This document shows positions 3,331-18,763 of a stretch of DNA of 64,000 nucleotides, piece after piece. The notes under the pieces were generated by a model. That model did not search any database. It was not told the DNA's origin and saw only the letters and a program-made list of their open reading frames with translations. Every line of letters begins with the position of its first letter. Position 1 is the first letter of the stretch. The stretch comes from Micromonospora sp. WMMD980 (lineage in GTDB: Bacteria > Actinomycetota > Actinomycetes > Mycobacteriales > Micromonosporaceae): positions 2,542,001 to 2,606,000 of the forward strand of contig NZ_JARUBE010000003.1 of assembly GCF_029626035.1 (NCBI RefSeq). Reading direction: 5' to 3'. The translations under genes and the position numbers were made by a program.

Positions 3331-4335
3331 ATGGACCGGTCAGCGATCCGCACGGAGCAGACCCCGGCGGTCCGGGTGCTGGAGGCGGCGGCCCGGCAGT
3401 CCCTGCACGCCCCCTCGGTGTTCAACACCCAGCCCTGGCGCTGGCGGGTCGACGCGGACACGCTTGAGCTGCGTGCCGACCCGGGCCGGCAGCTCGCGCA
3501 CACCGACCCCGACGGCCGGCTGCTGACCCTGAGCTGCGGCGCTGCCCTGCACCACGCCCGCGTGTCACTCGCCGCCGCGGGCTGGGCGGTCACCGTCGAG
3601 CGGCTGCCCGACCCGGCCGACCCGACGCTGCTGGCCCGGCTGCGCGCGACCGGCCCGACCGCGCTGGACGTGCCGGCGCTGCGGCTCGTCGAGGCGATCC
3701 CGCGCCGCCGGACCGACCGACGCGCCTACGGCGACCGGCCCGTCCCCGAGTGGCTGCTGACCCGGCTCACCGAGGCCGTCGAGGCGCAGGGCGCGCACCT
3801 GCACGTGGTCCGGCCGGACCAGATGCCGATGCTGGCCGTGTCCACCGGTCGCGCCGCCGACGCCGAGCTGGCCGACCCGGCGTACCGGGAGGAGTTGCGC
3901 CGCTGGACGAACCGCCCGGCGGGCAGCGGCGACGGCGTGCCCACGACCGCCGCGGTCCGGCCCGCGCCACGGCGCGTCCCGCTGCGCGACCACGCGCCCG
4001 GCGGGGCGGCCGGGCTGGCCGCCGGCGCGGACTTCGACCGCGGCGCGGCGTACCTGATCCTGTTCGGTGACGGCGACGAACCGGCGGCGTGGCTGCGCGG
4101 CGGGGAGGCGCTGTCGGCGCTGCTGCTCACCGCGACCGCCGAGGGGTTGGCCGGCGCGCCGCTCAGCGACGCGATCGAGCTGGCCTGGCCGCGGCGGATG
4201 ATGCGCGACCTGCTCGCCGGCCTCGGCGACCCCTATTTGGTGGTGCGCGTCGGCTGGGGCCCGGACGAGGACCTGCCGCCGGCTCCGCGCCGCGCGCCCG
4301 CCGAGGTCATCGAGGTGGTGGCCCCGCCGGAGTGA
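3331..4335 (+). CDS. Acg-family (nitroreductase-like) FMN-binding protein
   Basis: 334 aa. The N-terminal APSVFNTQPWRWRV motif and the two-lobed nitroreductase-like layout are typical of the mycobacterial Acg/Rv2032 family, an atypical nitroreductase group thought to bind and sequester flavin rather than catalyse reduction. RRRTDRRAYGDR near residue 130 is another family signature. The ATG at 3331 has a good GAGGAGG site about 8 bp upstream. It stands alone between the regulator and the kinase-like gene. A second, more divergent member of the same superfamily is encoded at 23781-24764. Whether this protein is enzymatic cannot be told from sequence. Confidence 0.82.
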   Translation: MDRSAIRTEQTPAVRVLEAAARQSLHAPSVFNTQPWRWRVDADTLELRADPGRQLAHTDPDGRLLTLSCGAALHHARVSLAAAGWAVTVERLPDPADPTLLARLRATGPTALDVPALRLVEAIPRRRTDRRAYGDRPVPEWLLTRLTEAVEAQGAHLHVVRPDQMPMLAVSTGRAADAELADPAYREELRRWTNRPAGSGDGVPTTAAVRPAPRRVPLRDHAPGGAAGLAAGADFDRGAAYLILFGDGDEPAAWLRGGEALSALLLTATAEGLAGAPLSDAIELAWPRRMMRDLLAGLGDPYLVVRVGWGPDEDLPPAPRRAPAEVIEVVAPPE

Positions 4336-4372
4336 CCCGTCGTGGCCGAGCACCCGGCGCTACCCTCGGCGG

Positions 4373-5113
4373 GTGTTCGAACTGGATCCGGCCGACGCGT
4401 TCGTGGTCTTCGGCGACCAGGACTCCGGTTGTCTCTCCTACGGCGTGCGGACGGCGGGCCGGCGCTGGTTCGTCAAGCGGGCCCGGACACCGGAGGCGCG
4501 GGCCTCGCTGACCCGGGCCCTCGGCCTGCACGCCGCCGTCCGGCACCCGGCTGTCGTCCGGCCGGAGCTGGTGCGCGACGGCGCCGACGGGCCCACGCTG
4601 GTCTACCCGTGGTGCGAGGGGACCGTGCTCAACCACGCCACCGTGCACGGATCGGACCGCGCCGGCCTGGCCCGCTTCCAGCGCCTGCCGGTCCCCGAGG
4701 TGCGCGCGGCTCTCGCGGTGGTCCTCGACGCCCACCTGGCCGTCGACGCCGCCGGTTACGTCGCGGTCGACCTGTACGACGGCTGCTTCCTCTACGACTT
4801 CGAGGCGCGCCGAATGTGGCTGATCGACCTGGACGAGTACCGGCCGGGCCCGTTCGTGCTGGACTCCGAGCGGTTGCCCGGTTCCCGCCGCTACCTCTCC
4901 CCGGAGGAGCTGACCCGGGGCGCGGTGATCGACGGGCGCACGACGGTGCACGCGTTGGGCCGTACGCTGCACCACCTGCTCGACGCGCCGTCGGGCTGGC
5001 GGGGCGACGGACGAGCCGCGGCGGTCGTGGAGCGAGCCACCCGAGCCGACCCGGGCGCGCGGTACGCGTCCGTGCCCGACCTGGTCGGGGCCTGGCGGTA
5101 CGCCTGGCGCTGA
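4373..5113 (+). CDS. Divergent protein-kinase-fold protein
   Basis: 246 aa, too short for a full receptor kinase but covering a minimal kinase core. FVKRA (Lys35) matches the beta-3 lysine, AVDLYDGCFLYDF (Asp133) sits where the HRD catalytic loop should be, and LIDLDEYR (about 151-157) replaces the DFG motif. The usual HRD histidine/arginine and the downstream Asn are absent, so activity is doubtful or the fold is closer to aminoglycoside-phosphotransferase-like kinases. GTG start at 4373, 37 bp after the Acg-family gene, so it may be co-transcribed. No membrane segment or sensor domain is visible. Confidence 0.7.
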   Translation: MFELDPADAFVVFGDQDSGCLSYGVRTAGRRWFVKRARTPEARASLTRALGLHAAVRHPAVVRPELVRDGADGPTLVYPWCEGTVLNHATVHGSDRAGLARFQRLPVPEVRAALAVVLDAHLAVDAAGYVAVDLYDGCFLYDFEARRMWLIDLDEYRPGPFVLDSERLPGSRRYLSPEELTRGAVIDGRTTVHALGRTLHHLLDAPSGWRGDGRAAAVVERATRADPGARYASVPDLVGAWRYAWR

Positions 5114-5336
5114 CCGCCCTGACCGCCCCGACCGCCCCGACGCTCGCCCCGCGCGCCGGTCTCCGCCGGCGGGCCGACGACCCCCGGATCAGTCACGCTC
5201 AGTCAGGACGGGTGCGTTGTCGGGGCAGTCACGCCGAGTAGCGGCCATCCGTTCTCCTGGCGTGACCAACGTTCGGTGCCACATCGGTCTGAGCAGGCAC
5301 TATCCGAGAACATGTCGTCCGCCGGGATGAGCCCCT

Positions 5337-5418
5337 CGCTGCCTTTGCTCTGCAGCCACCCACGCAGCAGCTGGCCGTCCGTCACCGATGCGTCCGTGGC
5401 TGCAGAGCAAAGGCAGCG
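5337..5418. repeat. Perfect 23-bp inverted repeat with 36-nt loop
   Basis: Positions 5337-5359 and 5396-5418 are exact reverse complements (core TTTGCTCTGCAGCCAC). The arms are less GC-rich than surrounding DNA and no T-tract follows. It could be a miniature mobile or palindromic repeat family, an RNA hairpin or a terminator of the preceding transcription unit. Copy number in the genome is unknown from this window; no second copy was noticed here. Confidence 0.85.
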
Positions 5419-5832
5419 GGGCGAGGTTGCCGATACTCACCCATTGCTCACATGGAGTGACCGACCGACGCGGGCCGACGCGAGCGCGCGCCAGGTGTGG
5501 CGAGGAGACCGACGGCACACTCGGGGCCGGCGGGGCGATCCGGCCGGCGGACCGTCCATGACGACCCCGGCCGCCACGGGCGGTTCGGCGGCGCGGGTCC
5601 GCGACGGCGGGTACGGCACGCACCACGAGGGACAGTTCCTTATTGTCCACTGTCACTGTCAGCAACCATTCTTCGAGATGTTGACGGGTGGCGATCCGGG
5701 GGACAATCATGATGGTCACTGGATCCACCGCACGCCAATGTCGGATCTGGTGGCATTTCCCACCCCTCGACGGGATCGCGCCGGGACCGCGAGATTCCGC
5801 CGGGCAATCGTGCCCGGCGCGCGCTCGGTTAA

Positions 5833-5851
5833 TCCTATCGACTGGATAGGA
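5833..5851. promoter_or_regulatory. Dyad TCCTATC-GACTG-GATAGGA before the aminotransferase gene
   Basis: Perfect 7-bp arms with a 5-nt spacer, ending 30 bp upstream of the GTG start at 5882. A palindromic operator or a 5'-UTR hairpin is possible. The AT content of the arms is unusual for this genome. Confidence 0.4.
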
Positions 5852-5881
5852 GTTGCCGCCGCTCGCCCGAGGAGTCCGCCG

Positions 5882-7195
5882 GTGAACGGGAACAACGACG
5901 CTCCCGCCCGGAGCCGGCCGAGGCCGGCTCCGCACGGCGCTGAGCTGGAAAGACAGCTCGCCCTGCACGGCGGTCGACCGGTCCGGCGCACGCCGTGGCC
6001 CACCTACGACAAAGGCGCGGTATTCGTACACGCCGAAGACGAGGACGCCGCAATTCGGGCCATTCGCAGTCATCTCTACTTCCGATACGACCACCGGCCG
6101 CAGAACGAAACCGAATGTGGCCGTTTCGAGGACGAACTGTGCCACTATTTCGGCACCCGGCACGCTCTCGCCGTTTCCAGCGGCACCGCCGCGCTCGCCC
6201 TCGCCCTGATGGGCGCCGGAGTGCCGCCCGGCTCATTGGTCGCCTGCCCCGGATTCACTTTCGTCGCCACTCCGAGCGCCATTGTGCTGGCCGGCTGCCG
6301 GCCATTTCTGGTGGAGGTCGACGACGACCTGCGGATGGACCTCGACGACCTGCGCCGACGGTGGCGGCCGGACATCCGCGCCGTGATGGTGGTGCACATG
6401 CGCGGCTTCGCCGCCGACGTGGAGGCGCTCGCCGCCTTCGCCGCCGAGATGGGCGTGCCGCTGATCGAGGATGCCGTACCGGCGCTCGGCGCCGAACTCA
6501 ACGGCCGCAAGCTCGGCACGTTCGGCGCCGCGGGGGCGTTCAGCACCCAGTCGGACAAGGCGCTCAACTGCGGTGAGGGCGGCTTCCTGGTCACCGACGA
6601 CAGCACGCTGTTCGCCCGGGCGGTCGCGCTGTCCGGCGCCTACGAGGGACGGTTGCGGCGGCACTTCCCGCACGGCGAACCGTCGCTCACGGGCCTGGAC
6701 CTGCCCCTGCTCAGCCTTCGCATGGACGAGATCCGGGCGGCGCTGCTGCGGGCCGAGCTGACCCGGCTGCCGCAGCGGCTGGCGCTGTTCCACCGCAACT
6801 ACGCGCACGTCTCCCGGGCCCTCGCCGACCTGCCCGGCATCGCCGTGCGGCGGCCGGTCGCGCCCGGGGCGTACCTCGGGGAGGCGTTCCTGTTCCGCGT
6901 GCCCGGCGGCGACGCGAGCTGGTTCGCCCGGGCGCTGTGCGCGGAGGGGATCGACGCGCGCAACATCGGTGCGGACGACGACCTGAACGTCCGGGCGTTC
7001 TGGAACTGGCGCTTCCTCTACGACAGCGCCGACCCCGGGGAGATCCGCGCGACGCTGCCGCGCACCGCGCGGCTGCTCACCGAGACCGTCGACGTGCCGC
7101 TGTCGTCCAACCTCACCCCGGACGACTGCGACGACCTGGTCCAGGCGGTCCGCAAGGTGGCCGCCGCCCGCGACACCGCGCTGGCGCGGCCGTGA
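5882..7195 (+). CDS. DegT/DnrJ/EryC1-family PLP aminotransferase
   Basis: 437 aa PLP enzyme of the type that aminates keto-sugars, cyclitols or other ketones in natural-product pathways. Landmarks are SSGTAALALALMGAG (phosphate loop), LIEDAVPALGAELNGR (Asp that contacts the pyridine nitrogen) and QSDKALNCGEGGF, whose Lys should form the Schiff base. The GTG at 5882 is selected by GAGGAG 8 bp upstream and by family length. About 20 residues rich in Pro, Arg and Ala precede the usual LALHGG start of the fold, a disordered-looking extension. First gene of an eight-gene operon; its stop overlaps the transporter start (GTGA). The substrate is unknown. Confidence 0.88.
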   Translation: MNGNNDAPARSRPRPAPHGAELERQLALHGGRPVRRTPWPTYDKGAVFVHAEDEDAAIRAIRSHLYFRYDHRPQNETECGRFEDELCHYFGTRHALAVSSGTAALALALMGAGVPPGSLVACPGFTFVATPSAIVLAGCRPFLVEVDDDLRMDLDDLRRRWRPDIRAVMVVHMRGFAADVEALAAFAAEMGVPLIEDAVPALGAELNGRKLGTFGAAGAFSTQSDKALNCGEGGFLVTDDSTLFARAVALSGAYEGRLRRHFPHGEPSLTGLDLPLLSLRMDEIRAALLRAELTRLPQRLALFHRNYAHVSRALADLPGIAVRRPVAPGAYLGEAFLFRVPGGDASWFARALCAEGIDARNIGADDDLNVRAFWNWRFLYDSADPGEIRATLPRTARLLTETVDVPLSSNLTPDDCDDLVQAVRKVAAARDTALARP

Positions 7196-8370
7196 CCGGC
7201 ACGGACACCGAGGAGAAGCGCCTGCCCCGACGCGCGCTGGTGGGGCTGCTCGGCGGACTGTTCGCCGGCTACCTCGGGCTGACCGCGGTCATCCCGGTCC
7301 TGCCCGGCTTCCTGCGCGAGCGGCACGACGCCGGTGACCTGACCGTCGGTGTCGTGGTCACCGTGACCGCGGTGACCGCGCTGCTGGTCCGCCCGGTCGC
7401 GGGCGCGCTCGCCGACCGGTACGGCCACCGCACCGTGATGCTGACCGGGGCGCTCGTGGTGGCCGCCGGTGGCCTGCTGTACCTGGCGCCGCTGGGCGTG
7501 CCGGCACTGGTGGCGGTGCGGCTGCTGCTCGGCGCCGGCGAGGCGGCGCTGTTCACCGCCGGCGCGGTGTGGATCGTCCAGCTCGCCCCGCACCACCGGC
7601 GCGGCCAGCTCATCGGCCTGTACGGGGTGAGCATGTGGGGCGGCATCTCCGCCGGCACGTTCCTCGGCGCCACCGTGCAGCAGGCCGGATACCCGGCGGT
7701 GTGGGCGCTCAGCGCCGCCGCCCCGGCCCTCGGCGCCGCGCTCGTCGCGCTGGCGCCGACGCCGCCGCGTGCCGCGCCGGCGGCCCGGGGCGGCGGCCTG
7801 TTGCTGCGTCCCGCGTTGCTGCCCGGCGTGGCGCTGACGTTCGGCGCGGCCGGATACGCCGGACTGGCCGCGTTCGTGGTGCTGCACCTGGACGCGCGTG
7901 GCATCGGCCCCGGCGTGGTGGTGCTGAGCTGCTTCAGCGCGGTCTACGCCGGCACCCGACTGGTCATCGGTCACCTGCCCGACCGGCTCGGCCCCCGCCG
8001 GGTGGCCGCCTGGTGCGGAGTGGGCGAGGCGGTCGGCCTGCTGGTCATCGCGGTCGCCCCGAACCTCCCGGTCGCGGTCGCCGGCAGCGTGGTGATGGGG
8101 GTCGGATTCTCGCTGCTGCACCCGTCGCTGGCGCTGATGGTGATGAACCGCGCCGACCCGGCGCGGCAGGGCGCGGCGATCGGGGCGTACACCTCGTTCT
8201 GGGATCTCGGGCTGGCGGTGTGGGGGCCTGCGACCGGTCTGGTCGCCGCCGGGTTCGGCTACCCGGCGGTGTTCGTGGCCGGCGCGGCCGGCGCGGCGGT
8301 GGCCGCCGCGATGGCGCTGCGCATCGGCCGGCCCGTCGCCGCCGCACAACCCCTGGAGGTACGCGCGTGA
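7192..8370 (+). CDS. MFS transporter, probable exporter
   Basis: 392 aa, about 12 hydrophobic segments in two halves. The cytoplasmic loop 2-3 signature ALADRYGHRT (motif A) is intact and a weaker copy (HLPDRLGPRR) lies between helices 8 and 9, as expected for a drug:proton antiporter-type MFS protein. The GTG start overlaps the preceding stop and the gene's own stop overlaps the sulfotransferase start, implying translational coupling. Location inside the operon suggests export of the pathway product, or self-protection; that is inference. Confidence 0.88.
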   Translation: MTGTDTEEKRLPRRALVGLLGGLFAGYLGLTAVIPVLPGFLRERHDAGDLTVGVVVTVTAVTALLVRPVAGALADRYGHRTVMLTGALVVAAGGLLYLAPLGVPALVAVRLLLGAGEAALFTAGAVWIVQLAPHHRRGQLIGLYGVSMWGGISAGTFLGATVQQAGYPAVWALSAAAPALGAALVALAPTPPRAAPAARGGGLLLRPALLPGVALTFGAAGYAGLAAFVVLHLDARGIGPGVVVLSCFSAVYAGTRLVIGHLPDRLGPRRVAAWCGVGEAVGLLVIAVAPNLPVAVAGSVVMGVGFSLLHPSLALMVMNRADPARQGAAIGAYTSFWDLGLAVWGPATGLVAAGFGYPAVFVAGAAGAAVAAAMALRIGRPVAAAQPLEVRA

Positions 8371-9335
8371 GTGCGCCCGTGGCCGTGCTCAGCGTCACCG
8401 GCTGGTGTCGCAACGGCAGCACCATCATCGGCAACGTCCTCGGCGAGACCCCCGGCGTGGTCCACGTCGGCGAGCTGCACTTCCTGTGGAAGAACTCCAC
8501 CGGTCGAGGCGTCAACGACAGGTGCGGCTGCGGCGAGTCGCTGACCACCTGCCCGCTGTGGTCGGCGGTGCTGCCGGTCGGCCGCCCGGCCGGGATGTCC
8601 GCCGACGCGCACGCCGCCGAGGTGATCCGGCGACAACGCGCCCGGCTGCGGACCCGGCACACCTGGCGGGTGCTGCGCCGGGGCGCGGACCACCCGGACG
8701 CCCGCGCGCACGCCGAGCTGCTCGGCGCGGTCTACCGGGAGGTCGCCGCGCGCACCGGCACCCGGGTGATCGTGGACAGCACCAAGATCCCGGGTGAGTC
8801 GGCGTTGCTGCCGCACGTGCCCGGCGTCGAGCCGTACTGGCTGCACCTGGTCCGCGACCCGCGCGCGGTGGCGCACTCCTGGCGGGAACCGAAGGACTAC
8901 GTGTACGCCATGTCGGCGGCGCGCAGCACCGCCTACTGGCACGGCTTCAACCGGGCCTCGGCGGCGATCAACCGTCGGCACCCCGGACGGTCGACGTTCC
9001 TGCGCTACGAGGACTTCACCGCCGACCCGGCCGGCACGGTCGACGCCCTGCTGCGGCTGGTCGGAGTCGACCCGGCCGGCAACCCGGTCCGGGGCCGCGG
9101 CGTCGAGCTGCGCGGCAACCACACGGTGACCGGCAACCCGGACCGGTTCCGCACCGGCGCCACGATCATCCGGGGCACCGACGACGGGTGGCGGCAGACG
9201 CTGACCGGCCGGCAGCGCCTCGCCGTGGCGGCGCTGGCCTGGCCGCTGTCCGCCCGCTACGGCTACCGGCCCGGCGGCGGACCGGCCGGTACGCACCCCG
9301 GCGCGGCGGCCCGCGTCGGTGAGACGAAGGGGTGA
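8367..9335 (+). CDS. PAPS-dependent sulfotransferase family protein
   Basis: 322 aa. The N-terminal VTGWCRNGSTIIGNVLGE is the 5'-phosphosulfate-binding loop of sulfotransferases in the common bacterial GRSGST form, and LHLVRDPRAVAHSWREPK is the 3'-phosphate-binding motif. It would transfer a sulfuryl group from PAPS to an acceptor hydroxyl or amine. Cysteines cluster at RCGCGESLTTCPLW (about residues 52-65), as in many actinobacterial members. Coupled by 4-bp overlaps to genes on both sides. No PAPS-synthesis genes are in the window, so PAPS must come from elsewhere. Sulfotransferases are recurrent neighbours of natural-product-type encapsulins, which supports the operon interpretation. Confidence 0.85.
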   Translation: MSAPVAVLSVTGWCRNGSTIIGNVLGETPGVVHVGELHFLWKNSTGRGVNDRCGCGESLTTCPLWSAVLPVGRPAGMSADAHAAEVIRRQRARLRTRHTWRVLRRGADHPDARAHAELLGAVYREVAARTGTRVIVDSTKIPGESALLPHVPGVEPYWLHLVRDPRAVAHSWREPKDYVYAMSAARSTAYWHGFNRASAAINRRHPGRSTFLRYEDFTADPAGTVDALLRLVGVDPAGNPVRGRGVELRGNHTVTGNPDRFRTGATIIRGTDDGWRQTLTGRQRLAVAALAWPLSARYGYRPGGGPAGTHPGAAARVGETKG

Positions 9336-10171
9336 CGGACGTGGATCTGGGGCTCAAGGGTCGGGTGGCGCTGGTGGCCGGCGGCACCAGCGGGATCGGG
9401 CTGGCCTGCGCGAAGGAGTTCGCCGCCGAGGGCGCACACGTGGCCGTCTGCGGGCGCGACCCGGATCGCCTCGCCGCGGCCGAACGGGAGGTGGCCGCGG
9501 TGGCGACCGGTCGGGTCAGCGCCGACCGGGTGGACGTCACCGACACCCGCGCCGCCGCCCGCTGGGTGGACCGCGTCGCCGCCGGACTCGGCGGGGCGGA
9601 CGTGCTGCTGGTCAGCGGCGGCAGCCCGCCGATCGGCACCGCCACCGCCTTCGACGTCGACGACTACCGGGCCGCCGTCGACCGGGTGCTGCTGCCGGCG
9701 GTCGCGCTGTCGCTGGCCGCGGTGCCGCACATGCGCGCCGCCGGCCGGGGCCGGCTGCTGCTGGTCGCCTCCGAGACCGCCTGCGTGCCGATCGGCCCGC
9801 TGGTGCTGTCCGGGGTGACCCGGGCCGCGCTGGTCCGCTTCGCCCAGGGACTCGCCGTGGACGTGGGCCGCGACGGCATCACCGTGAACGTGCTCGCGCC
9901 CGGCGGGGTGCGTACCCCGCCGATGGAACGCGCGGCGGCCCGGCTGGCCGGCGACGACGGCGACGTGGCGGCCCGGCTCGCCGCGATGGGCCATCACAGC
10001 GCCGTCGGCCGGTTGGCCCGCCCGGAAGAGGTGGCCGCGGTGGCCGCGTTCCTGGCCGGCGAGCGGGCGTCGTACGTGACCGCCGGCGTGCACCTGATCG
10101 ACGGCGGCGCCGCCGCGACCGGCCCCGACCTGCCGCACCTGACCGGGGTCCGCAAGGACACCTACGCCTGA
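9332..10171 (+). CDS. Short-chain dehydrogenase/reductase lacking the YxxxK motif
   Basis: 279 aa Rossmann-fold SDR. The cofactor loop is AGGTSGIGLA (about residues 17-26) and CGRDPDRL suggests NADP preference. The active-site Ser is in LLVASETA, but where YxxxK should follow the sequence reads LVLSGVTRAAL, so the catalytic Tyr and Lys are both missing. A subgroup of SDRs annotated as ketoacyl-reductase-like has the same substitution with a conserved Arg; its chemistry is not settled. The GTG start overlaps the sulfotransferase stop. Position implies a role in the same pathway, perhaps a non-redox or altered activity. Confidence 0.85.
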   Translation: MTDVDLGLKGRVALVAGGTSGIGLACAKEFAAEGAHVAVCGRDPDRLAAAEREVAAVATGRVSADRVDVTDTRAAARWVDRVAAGLGGADVLLVSGGSPPIGTATAFDVDDYRAAVDRVLLPAVALSLAAVPHMRAAGRGRLLLVASETACVPIGPLVLSGVTRAALVRFAQGLAVDVGRDGITVNVLAPGGVRTPPMERAAARLAGDDGDVAARLAAMGHHSAVGRLARPEEVAAVAAFLAGERASYVTAGVHLIDGGAAATGPDLPHLTGVRKDTYA

Positions 10172-10202
10172 GTCCACCCGACCGCCGCACAAGGGAGTGC
10201 CC

Positions 10203-11042
10203 ATGTCCACGACCAGCCAGTTCACCGAGCGGGACGTCTCCGAGTTCTTCGACCAGACCACGCAGACGTACCTCAGCTTCTGGGACAGCGAGGGCGTGCT
10301 GCACACCGGCTACTTCGCCGGCGACGACGACGCCGACTACCACGCGGCGGCGGACCGGACCTCGGACATCCTCGCCGACGACGCCGGCATCGACGCCTCG
10401 TCTAACGTGCTCGACGTCGGCTGCGGCTGCGGCAACTTCCTGCTGCGACTGGCCGCGCGCACCGGATGCCGGGGCGAGGGCCTGGACCTGAGCATCGAGC
10501 GGATCCGGTTCGCCGAGCAGCGGCGCGCCGAGCGCGGCGCCGGGCTGGACGTGACGTTCCGGCACGGCTCGGCCACCGCCCTGCCGTACGCCGACGGCAC
10601 GTTCACGCACGTGGTCAGCCAGGACGCGTTGTTCCTGGTGCCGGAGAAGCCGCGCAGCCACGCCGAGATGTTCCGGGTGCTCGCCCCCGGCGGCGTGCTG
10701 GCCGTCTCCGACTTCCTCCAGCCCACCGAGCGGATCGGCGAGGCGGCCCGCCGGCACGTCTACGACCGGGTGCGGTGGAACGGCGGCTACTCGCTGGACG
10801 GCTACCGCGAGGCGTTGACCGACGCGGGGTTCGTGGACGTGGTGGCCCGCAGCCTGGACACGCACATCCGGCAGACGTACCTGGTGCTGGGGCGCACCGC
10901 CCGTGAGCGCGCCGCGACCACGACCGACGAGGCGGCGCGGACCTGGATCGGGAACTTCGCCGACTCCTGCGACGAGATCCAGGCGGCCATCGACCGGGGC
11001 GAGTTCGGCTGGGGCATGTTCGTCGCCCGCAAGCCGGCCTGA
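10203..11042 (+). CDS. SAM-dependent class I methyltransferase
   Basis: 279 aa. SAM-binding motif I is LDVGCGCGNFLL (about residues 66-77), followed by a plausible acidic residue in GEGLDLS and the post-II segment HVVSQDALFLVPEK. The N-terminal helical lid (FTERDVSEFFDQTTQTYLSFW) resembles small-molecule C-, O- or N-methyltransferases such as those acting on isoprenoid or amine substrates. The ATG at 10203 has AAGGGAG 7 bp upstream; a GTG 6 bp earlier is possible. It lies 31 bp after the SDR gene and 14 bp before the shell-protein gene, making it a possible encapsulated enzyme. Acceptor unknown. Confidence 0.88.
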   Translation: MSTTSQFTERDVSEFFDQTTQTYLSFWDSEGVLHTGYFAGDDDADYHAAADRTSDILADDAGIDASSNVLDVGCGCGNFLLRLAARTGCRGEGLDLSIERIRFAEQRRAERGAGLDVTFRHGSATALPYADGTFTHVVSQDALFLVPEKPRSHAEMFRVLAPGGVLAVSDFLQPTERIGEAARRHVYDRVRWNGGYSLDGYREALTDAGFVDVVARSLDTHIRQTYLVLGRTARERAATTTDEAARTWIGNFADSCDEIQAAIDRGEFGWGMFVARKPA

Positions 11043-11056
11043 GGAAGGGACACCAG

Positions 11057-11935
11057 ATGCCGCAACCCACCGACACCGTGAAGCGGACGATCGCCGAGGT
11101 GGTCGCCGCGCGCAGGACGCAGATGTCGCCCGGCGGGCTGTTCGTCGAGGCGTTCGCCAAGGACGGCTTCGACACCGGCGTCGACTACGACGTCACCATC
11201 ACCGACTCGCTGACCAGTTCCCGGCGCAAGCCCCGCTACCCGTCGCGGAACGTACTGAAGGTGGTCGACCTGTCGAAGGACCCGCAGGAGTTCTACTGGC
11301 ACGAGAGCCCGCCCCGCCCGGGCGACCCGGCGGTCGACGGCGCGGACCTGCGCCGGGAGGCGGCCAACCACTTCCACCGCTCCCCCATCCCGCCGCTGCT
11401 CACCACCACCGCGTGGGTACAGGTGCCGGACACGCTGTGGGAGGACCCGGTCAGCTTCGCCCAGTTCATCGACTACCGGCTGGTGGTGCGGCTGGCCACC
11501 GCCGAGAACCACACCATCCTGCGCGGCGAGGGCGGGCTGCTGGGCATGCCGGACCTGGGCCGGCTCACCGACCCGGGCCCGTTCGGCTCCACCATCCTGT
11601 CCGCCTGCAACGAGGTGGAGCAGATGGGCAGCACCGCCGACGGGCTGATCATCAACCCGGCCGACTACTACCGGCTGCTCGGCAGCGGCTCGCTGATGCG
11701 CGACGTGGAGGAGAACGGCGTCTTCATCGTGCGTACCCGCCTGGTCGACCCGGGCACCGCGATCGTCGGCGACTTCGGCCACGGCGCGCTGCTGTTCGAC
11801 GCCGGCCGGTCCCGGATCGGCTTCGCCGAGCCGCCGCCGGGCACGTTCGCCGAGCCGGGGGTGGCGTTGCGCGCCGAGATCTGGGAGCGGGTCGTGGTGA
11901 ACCTGCCCACCTGCTTCTTCGTCGTCACGCTCTGA
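11057..11935 (+). CDS. HK97-fold shell protein, encapsulin-like (natural-product type)
   Basis: 292 aa. Features of the HK97 major-capsid fold occur in the right order: an N-terminal arm/E-loop region; TAWVQVPDTLWED then an amphipathic spine helix (FAQFIDYRLVVRLATAE) ending in a GEGG turn; an A-domain stretch with GLIINPADYYRLL; then AIVGDFGHGALLFD, and a terminal strand block with ALRAEIWERVVVNLP and FFVVTL. The same succession (NP-D-W, GDF/GAF-GAxxFD, xIRxEERLA) is seen in HK97-like capsids and encapsulins. There is no protease, portal, terminase or tail gene nearby; instead the gene sits mid-operon among biosynthetic enzymes. Published surveys describe such capsid-derived shells in biosynthetic clusters with sulfotransferases and SDRs (Family 3). 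Assignment to that family is inference; the fold call is strong. Shine-Dalgarno GGAAGGG precedes the ATG. Confidence 0.82.
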   Translation: MPQPTDTVKRTIAEVVAARRTQMSPGGLFVEAFAKDGFDTGVDYDVTITDSLTSSRRKPRYPSRNVLKVVDLSKDPQEFYWHESPPRPGDPAVDGADLRREAANHFHRSPIPPLLTTTAWVQVPDTLWEDPVSFAQFIDYRLVVRLATAENHTILRGEGGLLGMPDLGRLTDPGPFGSTILSACNEVEQMGSTADGLIINPADYYRLLGSGSLMRDVEENGVFIVRTRLVDPGTAIVGDFGHGALLFDAGRSRIGFAEPPPGTFAEPGVALRAEIWERVVVNLPTCFFVVTL

Positions 11936-11947
11936 CCGGCGACGACG

Positions 11948-13228
11948 ATGACGACACCCGCCCGCAGCGACCCCGACGTGCTGGTCATCGGCGCCGGCGT
12001 GGTCGGGCTGTGCTGCGCCTGGTTCCTGCGTCGCGCCGGGCACACCGTCTCGGTGGTGGACCGGGGCGAGGTCGGCGACCCGGCGGCGTGCTCGGCGGGG
12101 AACACCGGCTTCGTCGGCACCCAGGGCTCGGCGCCGCTGGCCGAACCCGGGGTGCCGGCGAAGGGTGTCCGCTGGCTGTTCAGCCCGGAGAGCCCGTTCT
12201 CGGTCAAGCCCCGCCTCGACGGCGCGTTGCTGGCCTGGCTGTGGCACTTCCGCCGGCACTGCACCGAACGGCACGCCCGCGCCGGCTTCGAGACGCTGCT
12301 CGCGCTGAAGCAACGCAGCCTGACGCTGCTGCGCCAGATCTGCGCCGCCGACGGCCTGGCCGGCACGCTCACCGAACGCGGCATGATCCTGGCCTGCCAC
12401 ACCGACCAGGGCTACGCGCGGGCCCGCCGGAGCATCCCGGCGGCGACCGCCCGCGGGGTGCCGCTGCGCGAGCTGGACGCCGCGGAGCTGGCCCGGTTGG
12501 AGCCGGGCGTCGACTTCGCGGTGGCCGGCGCGCTGCTCAACGAGGAGGGGGCCGCGCTGCGCATCCCGGCGTTCCTGGTCGGCCTCGCCGAGGCGTTGCG
12601 GGCGCGCGGCGTGGAGATCGTCACCGGCGCCGAGGTACGTGACTTCGAGGTGACCGGCCGGCGGGTGCGCGCGGTACGGACGGCCCGGGGCGACCTGCGC
12701 CCGGCCGAGGTGGTGATCGCCGCCGGGGTGTGGTCGGCGGCGTGCGCCCGGATGCTCGGCGTGGGCCTGACGCTGCAACCGGCGAAGGGCTACACGGTCA
12801 CCGTCCCGGCCGGCCCGGGCACGCCCACCCGGCCGGTGCTGCTCAGCGAGGGCAAGGTCGCGGTGATGCCGCTCGGTGACCGGGTCCGGATCGGTGGCAC
12901 GCTGGAGCTGTCCGGGCTGGACACGTCGGTGTCGCCGCGCCGGGTGGACGGGATCCTGCACACCGCCCGGCGTTACCTGCCGGCGCTGGAGACCGACCGG
13001 CGGCTCGACGTGTGGAGCGGGCTGCGCCCGTGCACGCCGGACAGCCTGCCGCTGATCGGCCGGGCCGCCGGTTACGACAACGTCAGCGTGGCCACCGGGC
13101 ACGGGCACATCGGGATGGGGTTGGCCCCGGCCGGCGGCGAACTGCTCGCCCAGCTCGTCACCGGCGTCGACGCGGACCTCTCGTCGGCGACGTTCGCCCT
13201 GGACCGCTTCCGGAGGGGAATCCGATGA
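11948..13228 (+). CDS. FAD-dependent amino-acid oxidase/dehydrogenase (DAO/DadA family)
   Basis: 426 aa flavoprotein. The FAD-binding VLVIGAGVVGLCCAW motif is at residues 11-25, CSAGNTGFVGTQGS is the DadA-like loop and SGLRPCTPDSLPLIGR with ATGHGHIGMGLAPAGGE is the C-terminal FAD/substrate region. The family oxidises the alpha-amino group of D-amino acids, sarcosine or glycine to imines. It starts 12 bp after the shell-protein gene and its stop overlaps the racemase-family start (ATGA), so expression should be coupled to both. Together with the racemase this points to amino-acid-derived chemistry in the operon. Substrate unknown. Confidence 0.88.
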   Translation: MTTPARSDPDVLVIGAGVVGLCCAWFLRRAGHTVSVVDRGEVGDPAACSAGNTGFVGTQGSAPLAEPGVPAKGVRWLFSPESPFSVKPRLDGALLAWLWHFRRHCTERHARAGFETLLALKQRSLTLLRQICAADGLAGTLTERGMILACHTDQGYARARRSIPAATARGVPLRELDAAELARLEPGVDFAVAGALLNEEGAALRIPAFLVGLAEALRARGVEIVTGAEVRDFEVTGRRVRAVRTARGDLRPAEVVIAAGVWSAACARMLGVGLTLQPAKGYTVTVPAGPGTPTRPVLLSEGKVAVMPLGDRVRIGGTLELSGLDTSVSPRRVDGILHTARRYLPALETDRRLDVWSGLRPCTPDSLPLIGRAAGYDNVSVATGHGHIGMGLAPAGGELLAQLVTGVDADLSSATFALDRFRRGIR

Positions 13229-13917
13229 GCGACCGGCCGGAGATCGGGGTGCTCTGCCTCGACACCAGCTTCGACAAGATCCCCGGGCACATCCGCAACC
13301 CGGCGACGTTCGACTTCCCGGTGCGCTACCGGGTGGTCGAGGGCGCCACCCCGCAGCGGCTGGTACGCGAGGCCGACCCGACGCTGCTGGAGCCGTTCGT
13401 CGCGGCGGCCCGCGACCTGCAGGAAGCCGGGGTCGCCGGCATCACCGGGGCGTGCGGCTTCCTGGTGCTGTTCCAGGCCGAACTCGCCGCCGCCGTGGAC
13501 GTGCCGCTCTGGTCGTCCAGCCTGGTGCAGCTGCCGATGGTGCACCGGATGGTCGGGCGCACCGTCGGGCTGCTGGTCGCCGACGAGGCGGCGCTGACCG
13601 CGCGGCACCTGGCGGCGGTCGGCGCGGCGGACGTGCCGGTCGCGGTCACCGGCATGGCCGGGCAGCCCGAGTTCCGTGCGGTGATGCTGCAGGGGCGGCG
13701 CGACGCGCTCGACGTGGACCGGCTGGCCGCCGAGGTCGACGGCCGGGTGGACGCGCTCGCGCGTGCTCACCCCGACCTGGGCGCGCTGGTGATCGAGTGC
13801 ACCGACCTGGTGCCGTTCGCGCACCGGATCCAGGCGCGGCTCGGCGTGCCGGTGTTCGACATCGTCACGCTGACCACGATGGCCCACGCGACGCTCACCC
13901 GCCGCCCGTACCGCTAG
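13225..13917 (+). CDS. Aspartate/glutamate/hydantoin racemase family protein
   Basis: 230 aa. The two catalytic cysteines of cofactor-independent racemases appear as GITGACGFL (about residue 76) and VIECTDLVPF (about 194), each in the expected pseudo-symmetric position. The family includes Asp/Glu racemases, hydantoin racemases and maleate isomerases, so the reaction could be racemisation or isomerisation. The ATG overlaps the oxidase stop and has GGAGGGG upstream. Last gene of the encapsulin-type operon; its stop codon overlaps the stop of the convergent hydrolase gene. Confidence 0.82.
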   Translation: MSDRPEIGVLCLDTSFDKIPGHIRNPATFDFPVRYRVVEGATPQRLVREADPTLLEPFVAAARDLQEAGVAGITGACGFLVLFQAELAAAVDVPLWSSSLVQLPMVHRMVGRTVGLLVADEAALTARHLAAVGAADVPVAVTGMAGQPEFRAVMLQGRRDALDVDRLAAEVDGRVDALARAHPDLGALVIECTDLVPFAHRIQARLGVPVFDIVTLTTMAHATLTRRPYR

Positions 13918-14783
13918 GCGAGGACCTCGCGGAGGCGGGCGGCGAACTCGGCCGGCTTGCCGGCATAGCCGGAGCGCTCGCCGAGGAAGCCGCCGTGGTG
14001 GCTGGGGAAGACCGCCGCCTCCTGCCCGAGCAGCGCCGCCGTGCCCAGCGCGGTCCGCGCCGTGTAGGTGCCGGCGGACTCCTCGCCGACCGCGACCACG
14101 ATGCGGGTCGGCCCGGCGGTGAGTCGGGCCGCGTCGGGCCGGTAATCGGTGATCGCCCACGAACTCTGCGACAGCAGCGGGTCGTCGCGCGTGCCGTCGT
14201 CGTCGGCGGGCATGCCGAACGCGGCCGGGTCGACGGCGGGCCGGTCGAAGTAGTCGTCGGTGAACTCGCCCTGCCAGGACGTCATGGCGATGAAGTCGGC
14301 CATGCCCGCGCCGGTGCCCCTCGCCTGGTATGCCTCGTGGAACCGGGCCCGCGCCCGTTCGGCGCCCGCCGCGTCGGGAAGCACCGCGTTGATCGGCGGC
14401 TCGTGCGCGACGAGCGTGACCACGTCGCCCGGGTGGGCGGCGACCAGTTCCAGCCCGGTCACCGCGCCGCCGCTGCTGCCGAAGACCTCGACCGGACCGG
14501 CGCCGAGCGCCTCGATCAGCAGGTGCAGGTCGGCGGCCTGCCGCTGGGGGGTGTGGTCGGACCGGCCGTCGTTGCGCCGGCTGCGGCCCAGGCCGCGCGG
14601 GTCGTAGGTGACCACGGTGCGGTCGGTGACGTGCTCGGCGAGCGCCGAGAAGCCCTCCGCCGTCATCGGCTGACCGATCATGAGGAGCACCGGGCGGCCG
14701 TCCGTCGGCGAGAGCGGCCCGCGCACGTCGTAGACCAGGTCGGCGCCGGGCACGGCGAGCGTGTGGGTCCGTGTCGTCGTCAT
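13914..14783 (-). CDS. Alpha/beta hydrolase
   Basis: 289 aa. Alpha/beta-hydrolase core with the nucleophile elbow EVFGSSGGAVTG (Ser about residue 108), a YDPRGLGRSR loop and a C-terminal SHHGGFLG that supplies the histidine. ATG at 14783 chosen as the only start near the family N-terminus. It is convergent with the encapsulin-type operon, its stop codon overlapping the racemase stop, so it is probably not part of that transcription unit. Substrate cannot be predicted; esterase, epoxide hydrolase or haloperoxidase-like activities all share this fold. Confidence 0.85.
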   Translation of the reverse strand: MTTTRTHTLAVPGADLVYDVRGPLSPTDGRPVLLMIGQPMTAEGFSALAEHVTDRTVVTYDPRGLGRSRRNDGRSDHTPQRQAADLHLLIEALGAGPVEVFGSSGGAVTGLELVAAHPGDVVTLVAHEPPINAVLPDAAGAERARARFHEAYQARGTGAGMADFIAMTSWQGEFTDDYFDRPAVDPAAFGMPADDDGTRDDPLLSQSSWAITDYRPDAARLTAGPTRIVVAVGEESAGTYTARTALGTAALLGQEAAVFPSHHGGFLGERSGYAGKPAEFAARLREVLA

Positions 14784-14928
14784 GGCGGTGACCCTACGAC
14801 CCCGGTGCGACAGCGGCCGTCGGTCCCGGGCCGGACGGCGGGAAACGCCCGCCCGGCGTCCCGGTGGCACATAGCGTGTGGGCAGAGGCGGCCTGTCAGG
14901 GAGGCGGCCGGGGCCGGAGGGGACGGAC

Positions 14929-15099
14929 GTGACGGAACCGGAAGAGGACCAGGAGAAGACCCGCAAGACCGACCAGGTGCTCTACTCCCCCGACGGCGAC
15001 CCGCACCACACGCTGGCGGAGGCGCCCCAGCCGGACGAGCACCTCGACGTCACGGCCACCGTCGACGACCGCACCGAGGTCGTCGACGACGAGCGGTGA
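14929..15099 (+). CDS. Small acidic hypothetical protein
   Basis: 56 aa, very rich in Asp and Glu (about 40 percent with Thr), no cysteine, no hydrophobic segment; probably disordered. GTG at 14929 follows a strong GGAGGGG site. Its stop codon lies within a hairpin shared with the convergent gene. Function unknown. Confidence 0.6.
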   Translation: MTEPEEDQEKTRKTDQVLYSPDGDPHHTLAEAPQPDEHLDVTATVDDRTEVVDDER

Positions 15100-15399: not shown

Positions 15400-17181
15400 T
15401 CACACGCCGTGGGACTGCAACCACAGCTCCAGCAGGCCCAGTTGCCACAACTTGTTGCTGCCGGCGGTCGCCTGCGCCCGGTCCGGCTCGGCGAGCAACT
15501 CGTCGACGTACGCACGGCGGAACAGGCCGCGCCGGCGTGCCTCGGGGGCGCCCAGGGCCTCCACCACCAACTCTCGCACGGGACCGTCGACGTTGCGCAG
15601 CGCCGGCACCGGGAAGTAGCCCTTGGGCCGGTCGATCACCTCGGCCGGCAGCACCTCGCGGGCCACGTCCTTGAGCACGCCCTTGCCGCCCTGGGCCAGC
15701 TTGTGCTCGGGCGGGCAGGCCGCGGCCAGCATCACCAGGTCCTGGTCGAGGAACGGCGTGCGGACCTCCAGCCCCCAGGCCATGCTCATGCTGTCCACCC
15801 GCTTCACCGGGTCGTCGGGGAGCATCAGGTGCGTGTCCAGGCGCAGCACGGCGTCCACCGCGGTCTGCGCGCCCGGCGCGGCCAGCTCGGACGCGACCAG
15901 CTCGCCGCTGACATCGGCGTCGCAGGCGTACGCCGGGTCGACCACCCGGTTCAGCCCGGCGTGGTCCCGGTCGAAGAACGCGGCGGTGAACTCGGCGGCG
16001 GCGTCCGGCCGGGCCGCCTCGGCGAGCCGGTGGTGGTAGCCGTAGCCGGCGAAGACCTCGTCCGCGCCCTGCCCGGACTGGGCCACCTTCACGTGCCGGG
16101 CGACCTGCTCGCTGAGCAGGTGGAACGCCACCACGTCGTGGCTGCCCATCGGCTCGGTCATGGCCGCCACGGTGGCGCGTACCGCCGGGCCGAGGTCGCC
16201 GTCGGCGAGCCGGATGCGGTGATGGTCGGTGTCGAAGGCGCGGGCGACCAGGTCGGAGTAGTGGAACTCGTCGCCGGCCTCGTCGCCCCGGCTGTCGAAG
16301 CCGATGCTGAACGTTTGCAGGTGGTGCTGCCCGGCCCCGTCGAGCAGCGCGACGATCATGCTGGAGTCGAGGCCGCCGGAGAGCAGCACCCCGACCGGCA
16401 CGTCGGCGACCAGCCGCCGGCGGACGGCGGTGCGCAGCGCGTCGCCGACCGCGGCCCGCCAGTCGTGGGCGTCCATGCCGTCGCGGGCCGGGTCGCGCCG
16501 GTACTCCGGGCGCCAGTAGACGTGCTCCCGGGACCGCCCGTCGGCCTCCACCACCCGGACCGTGGCCGGCGGCAGCTTGCGTATTCCGCGCAGGATGGTG
16601 CGCGGCGCGGGCACGATCGAGTGCCAGGAGAGGTAGTGGTGCAGCGCCACGGGGTCGATGCCGGTGTCCACGTCGCCGGCGGCGAGCAGCGCCGGGAGCG
16701 TGGAGGCGAAACGCAGCCGGCCGGGTGACTCGGCGAGGTAGAGCGGCTTGATGCCCAGCCGGTCGCGGGCCAGCACGAGCCGCCGCCGGGGCCGGTCCAC
16801 CAGGGCGACGGCGAACATGCCGACCAGGTGGTCGACGAACCGTTCACCCCACTGGGCGTACGCGACCAGGACGACCTCGGTGTCACTCGTCGATCGGAAG
16901 GTGTGTCCGACGGCCCGCAGCTCGTCGCGCAGCTCGGGATAGTTGTAGACGCAACCGTTGAAGACCAGGGCGAGACCGAGGTCGTCGCGGACCATCGGTT
17001 GACCGCCGGCCTCGGACAGGTCGATGACGGTCAGCCGGCGGTGCCCGAGCGTCACCCGACCGTCACTCCACCGGCCGTGGCCGTCCGGGCCGCGGGAGCG
17101 CATGGCCTCGGTCATCCGGTCGACCGCTTCGGCGTCCGGAACCGCCCCGTCGAAGCGGGCCTCACCGCTGATCCCGCACAT
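15400..17181 (-). CDS. Asparagine synthase-type glutamine amidotransferase, NAGGN-synthase-like
   Basis: 593 aa. Class II glutaminase domain starts with catalytic Cys2 ([12 protein letters not shown]) and contains [27 protein letters not shown] and FNGCVYNY; the synthetase domain has the PP-loop [11 protein letters not shown] (about residues 262-272) and [13 protein letters not shown]. The segments [19 protein letters not shown] and [12 protein letters not shown] are characteristic of the amidotransferase that makes the osmolyte N-acetylglutaminylglutamine amide, rather than plain AsnB. The usual partners (GNAT/ATP-grasp synthetase and peptidase) are not adjacent; instead the glutamine synthetase gene lies divergently 157 bp away. 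Either an asparagine synthase or NAGGN-type function is possible. Confidence 0.85.
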
Positions 17182-17338
17182 GTCGGCGACTACCCGGCGT
17201 GTGACGGAGGAAACCCCGGATGGGCGGTTGGCGAGCCGACGGCGGCGAGCCGTCGTACGGTGGCCGTACGGGCCACGTCCCCGGGCGGTCCGGCCACGGG
17301 ACGTGGCCGGAGATCAACAACGCCTGCCAGGAGGACGT

Positions 17339-18763
17339 GTGTTCGCCAATCCCGAGGAACTCCTGCGTTACCTCAAGAACGAGGACGTGAAGTTCGTCGA
17401 CGTACGTTTCTGTGACCTGCCCGGCGTGATGCAGCACTTCAACCTGCCGGTCGAGTCCTTCGACGACAGCGTCTTCACCGACGGCCTCGCGTTCGACGGC
17501 TCGTCGATCCGCGGCTTCCAGGCCATCCACGAGTCGGACATGCTGCTGCTGCCCGACGTCGCCACCGCGTTCGTCGACCCGTTCCGCAAGCAGAAGACGG
17601 TCGCGATCAACTTCTTCATCCACGACCCGTTCACCCGCGAGGCCTACTCCCGCGACCCGCGCAACGTGGCCAAGAAGGCCGAGGCATACCTCGCCGCCAG
17701 CGGCATCGCCGACACCGCCTACTTCGGCGCCGAGGCGGAGTTCTACATCTTCGACTCGATCCGCCACGAGACCTCGGCGCACCAGTCGTTCTACTACATC
17801 GACTCGATCGAGGGCGCCTGGAACACCGGCCGGGTCGAGGAGGGCGGCAACCGCGGCTACAAGACCGCCTACAAGGGCGGCTACTTCCCGGTGCCCCCGG
17901 TCGACCACTACGCCGACCTGCGCGACTCGATCGTGCGGCGGCTGGTCGATACCGGCTTCACCGTGGAGCGCTCGCACCACGAGGTGGGCACCGCCGGCCA
18001 GTCGGAGATCAACTACAAGTTCTCCACCCTGCTGCACGCCGGTGACCAGCTCCAACTCTTCAAGTACATCGTGAAGAACGAGGCCTGGGCCAACGGCAAG
18101 ACCGCCACGTTCATGCCCAAGCCGCTGTTCGGTGACAACGGTTCCGGCATGCACACCCACCAGAGCCTCTGGCTGAACGGCGAGCCGCTGTTCTACGACG
18201 AGACCGGCTACGCCGGGCTGTCCGACACCGCCCGCTGGTACATCGGCGGCCTGCTGCACCACGCGCCCTCGCTGCTCGCCTTCACCAACCCGACCGTCAA
18301 CTCCTACCGCCGCCTGGTGCCCGGCTTCGAGGCCCCGGTCAACCTGGTCTACTCGCAGCGCAACCGCTCCGCGTGCACCCGCATCCCGGTCACCGGCAGC
18401 AACCCCAAGGCCAAGCGCGTCGAGTTCCGGGTGCCCGACCCGTCGGCCAACGTCTACCTCGCCTTCTCCGCGATGATGATGGCCGGCCTGGACGGCATCA
18501 AGAGCAAGATCGAGCCGCCGGCCCCGATCGACAAGGACCTCTACGACCTGCCCCCGGAGGAGTGGGGCGACGTCAAGCAGGTCCCCGGCTCGCTGCCGGC
18601 CGTGCTCGACTCGCTCGAGGCCGACCACGACTACCTGCTCGACGGCGGCGTCTTCACCGACGACCTGATCTCCACCTGGATCGACTGGAAGAACGCCAAC
18701 GAGGTCGACCCGGTGCGCCTGCGGCCCACCCCGCACGAGTTCGCCATGTACTACGACTGCTGA
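17339..18763 (+). CDS. glnA: Type I glutamine synthetase (GSI-beta)
   Basis: 474 aa, full length for GlnA1. It makes glutamine from glutamate, ammonia and ATP as a cytoplasmic dodecamer. Diagnostic motifs are [28 protein letters not shown], the ATP-binding segment around KPLFGDNG, and [12 protein letters not shown]. The adenylylation tyrosine is present in [10 protein letters not shown], marking the beta type regulated by GlnE. GTG start at 17339 with CAGGAGG upstream. Followed by a strong hairpin at 18778-18820, so it is probably monocistronic. Housekeeping nitrogen assimilation. Confidence 0.96.

Follow-up and report, generated by a model that had tools for sequence, protein, structure and literature searches.

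A family 3 encapsulin shell gene within a compact eight-gene operon of Micromonospora, with a sulfotransferase as its constant neighbour in the loci sampled

What is a protein with the fold of a phage capsid doing in the middle of an operon that otherwise encodes enzymes and a transporter? The question is raised by a gene at positions 11057–11935 of a 64,000-nt stretch of Micromonospora sp. WMMD980 (assembly GCF_029626035.1, contig NZ_JARUBE010000003.1, positions 2,542,001–2,606,000), which we call the window and whose coordinates are used throughout. The gene product belongs to the family 3 (natural product) encapsulins, as a shell protein derived by domestication from an HK97-type capsid protein. 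The operon around it is probably, albeit with considerable reservation, a self-contained unit for the synthesis and export of a small molecule bearing sulfate and an amine, with the shell enclosing or docking the sulfation step.

The 292-residue protein passes the curated model NF041188 (‘family 3 encapsulin nanocompartment shell protein’) with 312.6 bits against a cut-off of 180, and scores 19.2 bits, below the cut-off of 24.2, with the Pfam family Phage_capsid. In a confident AlphaFold model, the HK97 fold is complete over residues 23–292 and the nine N-terminal residues are disordered. A sequence search of the PDB with the shell profile returned phage capsids as the closest matches and no family 3 shell structure among the solved structures; among solved non-capsid proteins only a ribosomal protein fell below an E-value of 1 (0.79). 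The model score, the fold, the biosynthetic rather than phage context and an adjoining pair of sulfotransferase and short-chain dehydrogenase/reductase (SDR) genes all place the protein in family 3. Family 1 was rejected, as PF04454 (Linocin_M18) matches nowhere in the genome. A prophage remnant was likewise rejected: nine neighbour and operon proteins scanned against PHROGs included no phage structural family, the matches being an aminotransferase, two esterases, and phrog_16728 and phrog_13807, both of unknown function and both on an asparagine-synthase-like protein at 15403–17181. One PHROG match of the shell protein itself (E-value 0.33) also has no known function.

The shell gene is one of eight intact open frames, all on the plus strand, that occupy positions 5882–13917. 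These frames, together with two features within the SDR gene, are the following:

5882–7195, plus strand: DegT/DnrJ/EryC1-type pyridoxal phosphate (PLP) aminotransferase (Pfam PF01041, 204 bits)
7192–8370, plus strand: major facilitator superfamily (MFS) transporter, presumed exporter (Pfam PF07690, MFS_1, 150 bits)
8367–9335, plus strand: sulfotransferase of the 3′-phosphoadenosine-5′-phosphosulfate (PAPS) type, Sulfotransfer_3 (PF13469, 36 bits, cut-off 27)
9332–10171, plus strand: atypical SDR (Rossmann) protein (PF13561, adh_short_C2, 126 bits)
9809–9823, plus strand: SGVTR at the position of the catalytic YxxxK of the SDR, aligned with YNVTK of sorbose reductase 3ai3
10121–10168, plus strand: C-terminal tail of the SDR, GPDLPHLTGVRKDTYA, a candidate targeting peptide conserved outside Nocardia
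10203–11042, plus strand: S-adenosylmethionine methyltransferase, an optional gene (PF13847, Methyltransf_31, 72 bits)
11057–11935, plus strand: family 3 encapsulin shell protein, HK97 fold (NCBIfam NF041188, scored above)
11948–13228, plus strand: FAD-dependent oxidoreductase of the D-amino acid oxidase (DAO) family, DadA/glycine oxidase-like (PF01266, 232 bits)
13225–13917, plus strand: Asp/Glu-racemase-superfamily protein (NCBIfam PRK07475, 268 bits, cut-off 231)

Four of the gene junctions are 4-nt overlaps and the remaining three are gaps of 31, 14 and 12 nt; the methyltransferase frame has an alternative open start at 10197. The ratio of nonsynonymous to synonymous substitution (dN/dS), estimated against three relatives, is below 1 for all eight genes, with a maximum of 0.67 for the sulfotransferase and values of 0.21, 0.27 and 0.52 for the shell gene. 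Because other genera share the gene order and every gene has a dN/dS below 1, the operon is more than a chance assemblage. An earlier note on this DNA had described an HK97-fold protein of the natural-product encapsulin group, embedded in a tightly coupled operon with genes of the seven other families listed here and with no phage gene nearby. The fold model and the NF041188 score, the junctions and recurrent order, the Pfam and NCBIfam assignments and the PHROGs scan bear this description out.

The PLP lysine motif of the aminotransferase (SDKxLNxGEGG) was found in 23 of 24 sequences, that of locus L025 not being matched by the pattern, and the closest solved structures are sugar or cyclitol aminotransferases and 3-amino-5-hydroxybenzoic acid synthase. 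The sulfotransferase contains an N-terminal GWCRNGST and a VRDPRAVAHSW motif, which we take to be its PAPS loops; no solved relative was found at an E-value of 0.01 or lower. For the methyltransferase, the closest solved proteins are a D-glucose O-methyltransferase (6uv6, 96 bits) and MitM (78 bits). The DAO-family protein reaches 284 bits with PRK00711, below the cut-off of 383, and 104 bits with glycine oxidase 4ysh. The racemase-like protein stays below the cut-off of Pfam Asp_Glu_race (25.8 versus 31 bits), and both of its cysteine motifs, CGF and ECT, are present in all 28 sequences compared.

A scan of species genomes yielded 27 loci with relatives at 64–96% identity, distributed among Micromonospora (12), Streptosporangium (two), Nonomuraea (three), Nocardia (four) and six metagenome-assembled genomes (MAGs), one of them labelled Chloroflexi, in which the aminotransferase gene lies downstream on the opposite strand. 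The racemase gene is present in all 27, the sulfotransferase, SDR and DAO genes in 26 each, and the MFS, aminotransferase and methyltransferase genes in 24, 23 and 22, respectively; where the aminotransferase (L003, L019, L026 and L027) or the sulfotransferase and SDR (L026) are lacking, the contig begins within the unit. Beyond the eight genes, some open reading frames are common to a few loci of two genera, and none is widespread or found in the window (comparison limited to frames of 90 residues and an E-value of 1e-15). The eight-gene unit is a discrete cassette shared by Micromonospora, Streptosporangium, Nonomuraea, Nocardia and MAGs, and other members of the genus have it as well, with 23 carriers among 160 genomes. 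Close racemase matches (83–100%) occur in precisely these 23 genomes, with one further genome showing a 37% match, so that in the genus no copy of the pathway without a shell is seen by the racemase marker. NF041188 itself matches in 41 of the 160 genomes, in 40 of them above the cut-off; across the phylum, an evenly drawn set of 396 genomes has just two that exceed the cut-off, both from this genus. A plasmid search found no copy in 72,556 records. Weak matches to the family 3 model (27–35 bits) at G054:C4:46004, G134:C2:4388227 and G100:C116:118472 in the genus have none of the queried neighbours and are perhaps phage capsids.

The 40 loci of the genus comprise 23 with the eight-gene unit (type A), 11 of type B and six that are amino-group carrier protein (AmCP)-like, these names being labels coined in this analysis. 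Type B loci encode an adenylation–carrier–reductase protein, an aldo-keto reductase, a Sulfotransfer_5 protein, the shell and mostly an MFS transporter; AmCP-type loci (L030, L035 and their relatives) have LysX, a [LysW] kinase/hydrolase and a transketolase beside the shell, sulfotransferase and SDR. In a Streptomyces-like genus of 392 genomes, 15 shell genes above the cut-off and one split gene below it make up 16 loci, of which six are AmCP-like, seven are of type B and three (L089–L091) are of a further type with shell, sulfotransferase and CysD/CysN. At L090, the one locus of the three whose neighbours were scanned, a gamma-glutamyltranspeptidase, an inositol-phosphatase-family protein and a haloacid dehalogenase-type hydrolase are also encoded. 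The split gene (L098, G690:C1:299044-299813) is of type B and lies in two pieces in different frames, a possible case of decay.

All 56 loci examined, which represent at least four neighbourhood types, have a sulfotransferase gene no more than 2 kb from the shell gene and in the same orientation. The window genome has five Sulfotransfer_3 genes above the cut-off and one below, so a sulfotransferase would neighbour the shell gene by chance in less than about 1% of cases per locus; the loci are related, and the number of independent linkage events is approximately the number of types. In the sampled loci the sulfotransferase is constant and the SDR is not. This shifts the emphasis of the earlier note, which had singled out the oxidase plus racemase as suggesting amino-acid-derived chemistry inside a shell: both genes are indeed present, but they are special to this one operon type, and the partner shared by all family 3 loci examined is the sulfotransferase.

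The SDR has the Rossmann type of fold and its glycine motif, and lacks the classical catalytic YxxxK. Residues S160 and R164 are invariant in 16 of 16 sequences, and SxxxR takes the place of YxxxK in all 35 SDRs read, that of the window among them (27/27 of type A, 3/3 of the AmCP type and 5/5 readable ones from Streptomyces; that of L085 was unreadable and is not counted). Such an SDR clade exists, as the solved proteins 2z1n and 5vps likewise have S...R at this position. The published idea that the SDR makes a hydroxyl that is then sulfated is, therefore, not safe. Type A SDRs also carry about 16 extra C-terminal residues, GPDLPHLTGVRKDTYA, with a mean identity of 59% among ten non-Nocardia representatives, against 68% for the body of the protein and 22–28% for the tails of the sulfotransferase, DAO and aminotransferase (L004, where the frame ran on, was omitted from the sulfotransferase tail and motif lists). 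This tail may serve as a targeting peptide or may belong to the structure of the SDR itself.

The analysis establishes the gene families and their order, the fold, the linkage and the conserved active-site residues. In the scheme that we favour, the aminotransferase, oxidase and racemase would place or reset an amine or amino acid and the sulfotransferase would add sulfate to a hydroxyl; methylation would be optional and the MFS protein would export the product. The shell would most likely enclose or dock the sulfation step and keep a reactive intermediate from the cytoplasm, its putative cargo being the SDR-like protein (recruited via the conserved tail), the sulfotransferase, or both.

Several observations weigh against this scheme. 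Both the shell particle and its cargo are predictions, and the DAO and racemase genes would also suit the catabolism of amino acids. Among close relatives, a shared neighbour reflects a single inherited event, however often it is counted; the type B sulfotransferases belong to a different Pfam family (Sulfotransfer_5), and L089–L091 have the sulfotransferase with no close SDR or aldo-keto reductase. In a tree of 63 shell sequences, from which L098 was excluded, support for the type A clade is just 0.54, and the clean clades are partly circular in that the type labels were taken from the best-matching shell query. A logic of reduction followed by sulfation is weakened by an SDR lacking YxxxK. 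In L089, a distant SDR with 30% identity, encoded about 6 kb away from the shell gene and not counted above, retains that motif. The four Nocardia loci lack the tail motif and, when included, lower the tail identity from 59 to 43%, and all eight AmCP-type SDRs read end without the tail, which means that it is not a general loading signal. The methyltransferase gene is absent from five of the 27 loci, the DAO gene from L026 and the MFS gene from L017; the DAO gene of L015 (Nocardia altamirensis, 10875–12151) lies in two frames, through either a frameshift or an assembly error.

An unlikely but not negligible alternative is that the shell contains a strained ring: a vicinal amine would displace the sulfate to give an aziridine or another small nitrogen ring (a Wenker-type reaction), and the shell would shield the cell from this alkylating agent. 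The sulfotransferase at 56 of 56 loci fits such chemistry, and the type B adenylation–carrier–reductase protein, aldo-keto reductase and sulfotransferase could together yield an amino-alcohol sulfate. The AmCP-type loci share the gene set described for azinomycin and vazabitide, whose route forms an aziridine when a sulfated diamino-dihydroxy acid cyclizes with loss of its sulfate (PMC9570651), and the 6-chloromethyl pipecolic acid yielded by the chloromyxamide cluster (PMC8346489) could arise by chloride opening of an aziridine. However, the eight window genes include no unassigned enzyme, and the sulfate may just remain on the product; for the window operon, the argument would be one of analogy. 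Its extension to the whole family is rather doubtful: family 3 encapsulins would serve generally to contain amine chemistry activated by sulfate, with each operon type making a different amino-alcohol sulfate, the sulfate leaving inside the shell in a biological Wenker reaction that gives an aziridine or a comparable strained ring, and the SDR-like protein without YxxxK serving as a non-redox partner. If this were true, the Micromonospora unit would be its smallest version, with eight genes and no nonribosomal peptide synthetase (NRPS), polyketide synthase (PKS) or carrier protein.

It is improbable that the compartment is catabolic or detoxifying, the racemase and FAD oxidase degrading an unusual amino acid and the shell retaining an aldehyde, imine or hydrogen peroxide. 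A D-amino acid dehydrogenase-like DAO protein and a two-cysteine racemase do neighbour the shell gene, yet the sulfotransferase, methyltransferase and MFS transporter better suit synthesis and export, and the distribution (23 of 160 genomes) is patchy. We give still less credence to a protein that no longer forms a closed shell and acts as an open scaffold or enzyme subunit. This would accord with the disordered N-terminal residues and with a PDB sequence search whose best matches were phage capsids and which found no family 3 structure, but the full fold over residues 23–292, with what we take to be the E-loop, P-domain and A-domain regions all aligned, speaks against it. Finally, a capsid gene left behind by a prophage or gene transfer agent is hardly credible: the fold is that of phage capsids and phage records match at 27–29% identity, but the scanned neighbours include no phage structural gene, the gene sits within an operon of 4-nt overlaps kept across genera, and its 292 residues compare with 385–395 in the full phage precursors listed in the structure search.

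As for the flanks, an inverted repeat at 5334–5421, upstream of the operon, has 33-nt arms that are 91% complementary, and similar arms at roughly ten other genomic sites (found with a guessed query loop) make it a dispersed palindromic repeat. One sigma-70-like site (5681–5710, 9/12) lies about 170 nt 5′ of the first gene, with 0.1 expected in shuffled sequence; an Rfam scan of 4000–15000 found no structured RNA match. The gene at 15403–17181 (minus strand) matches TIGR03104, N-acetylglutaminylglutamine amidotransferase, with 894 bits (cut-off 570) and phrog_16728 with 544 bits, and adjoins GlnA (17024–18763) and a glutamate-cysteine ligase-like gene.

Family 3 and its proposed nanoreactor role have already been published (Andreas and Giessen 2021, PMC8346489), with six operon classes and with sulfotransferase–SDR pairs described as common, not universal, in the text available. 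According to the same survey text, the chloromyxamide cluster is the single family 3 cluster studied experimentally, which agrees with the earlier suggestion that the window operon represents an uncharacterised pathway. Neither that text nor our literature searches yielded a family 3 encapsulin with a demonstrated cargo or role. Searches combining encapsulin with Micromonospora returned nothing, those with aziridine one paper (a chemistry review, by its title and the start of its abstract), and those for aziridine with sulfate elimination no paper holding all four terms; the word racemase is absent from the main text of PMC8346489. As far as these searches show, the sulfotransferase at all 56 loci, the lack of YxxxK and the conserved tail in the SDR, and the exact linkage of racemase and shell genes are new. 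With a span of about 8 kb, eight genes whose families can be assigned and carriers among cultured Micromonospora, the unit makes the purpose of such a shell directly testable, and both the sulfotransferase found beside every sampled shell gene and an SDR that has lost its catalytic pair help to focus the tests.

Compared with known systems, the shell protein resembles HK97 gp5 and actinophage major capsid proteins in fold, with remote sequence similarity, and differs from them in being shorter than the phage precursors and in having no phage neighbours. With the published family 3 systems, as described in the survey text, the window operon shares the model match, the HK97 fold, a natural-product-like operon, the adjoining sulfotransferase and SDR, and an actinobacterial host; unlike them, it has no NRPS, PKS or amino-group carrier protein and possesses DAO and racemase-like genes. 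The chloromyxamide cluster of Myxococcus sp. MCy10608 likewise combines a family 3 encapsulin with biosynthetic genes, to judge from its description in the survey, and differs in its peptide product. The azinomycin/vazabitide route, as far as described, has as its activating step the sulfation of an amino alcohol, a feature that it would share with the window operon; its carrier protein, kinase and transketolase, which the window lacks, are found at other family 3 loci (L030, L035 and their relatives).
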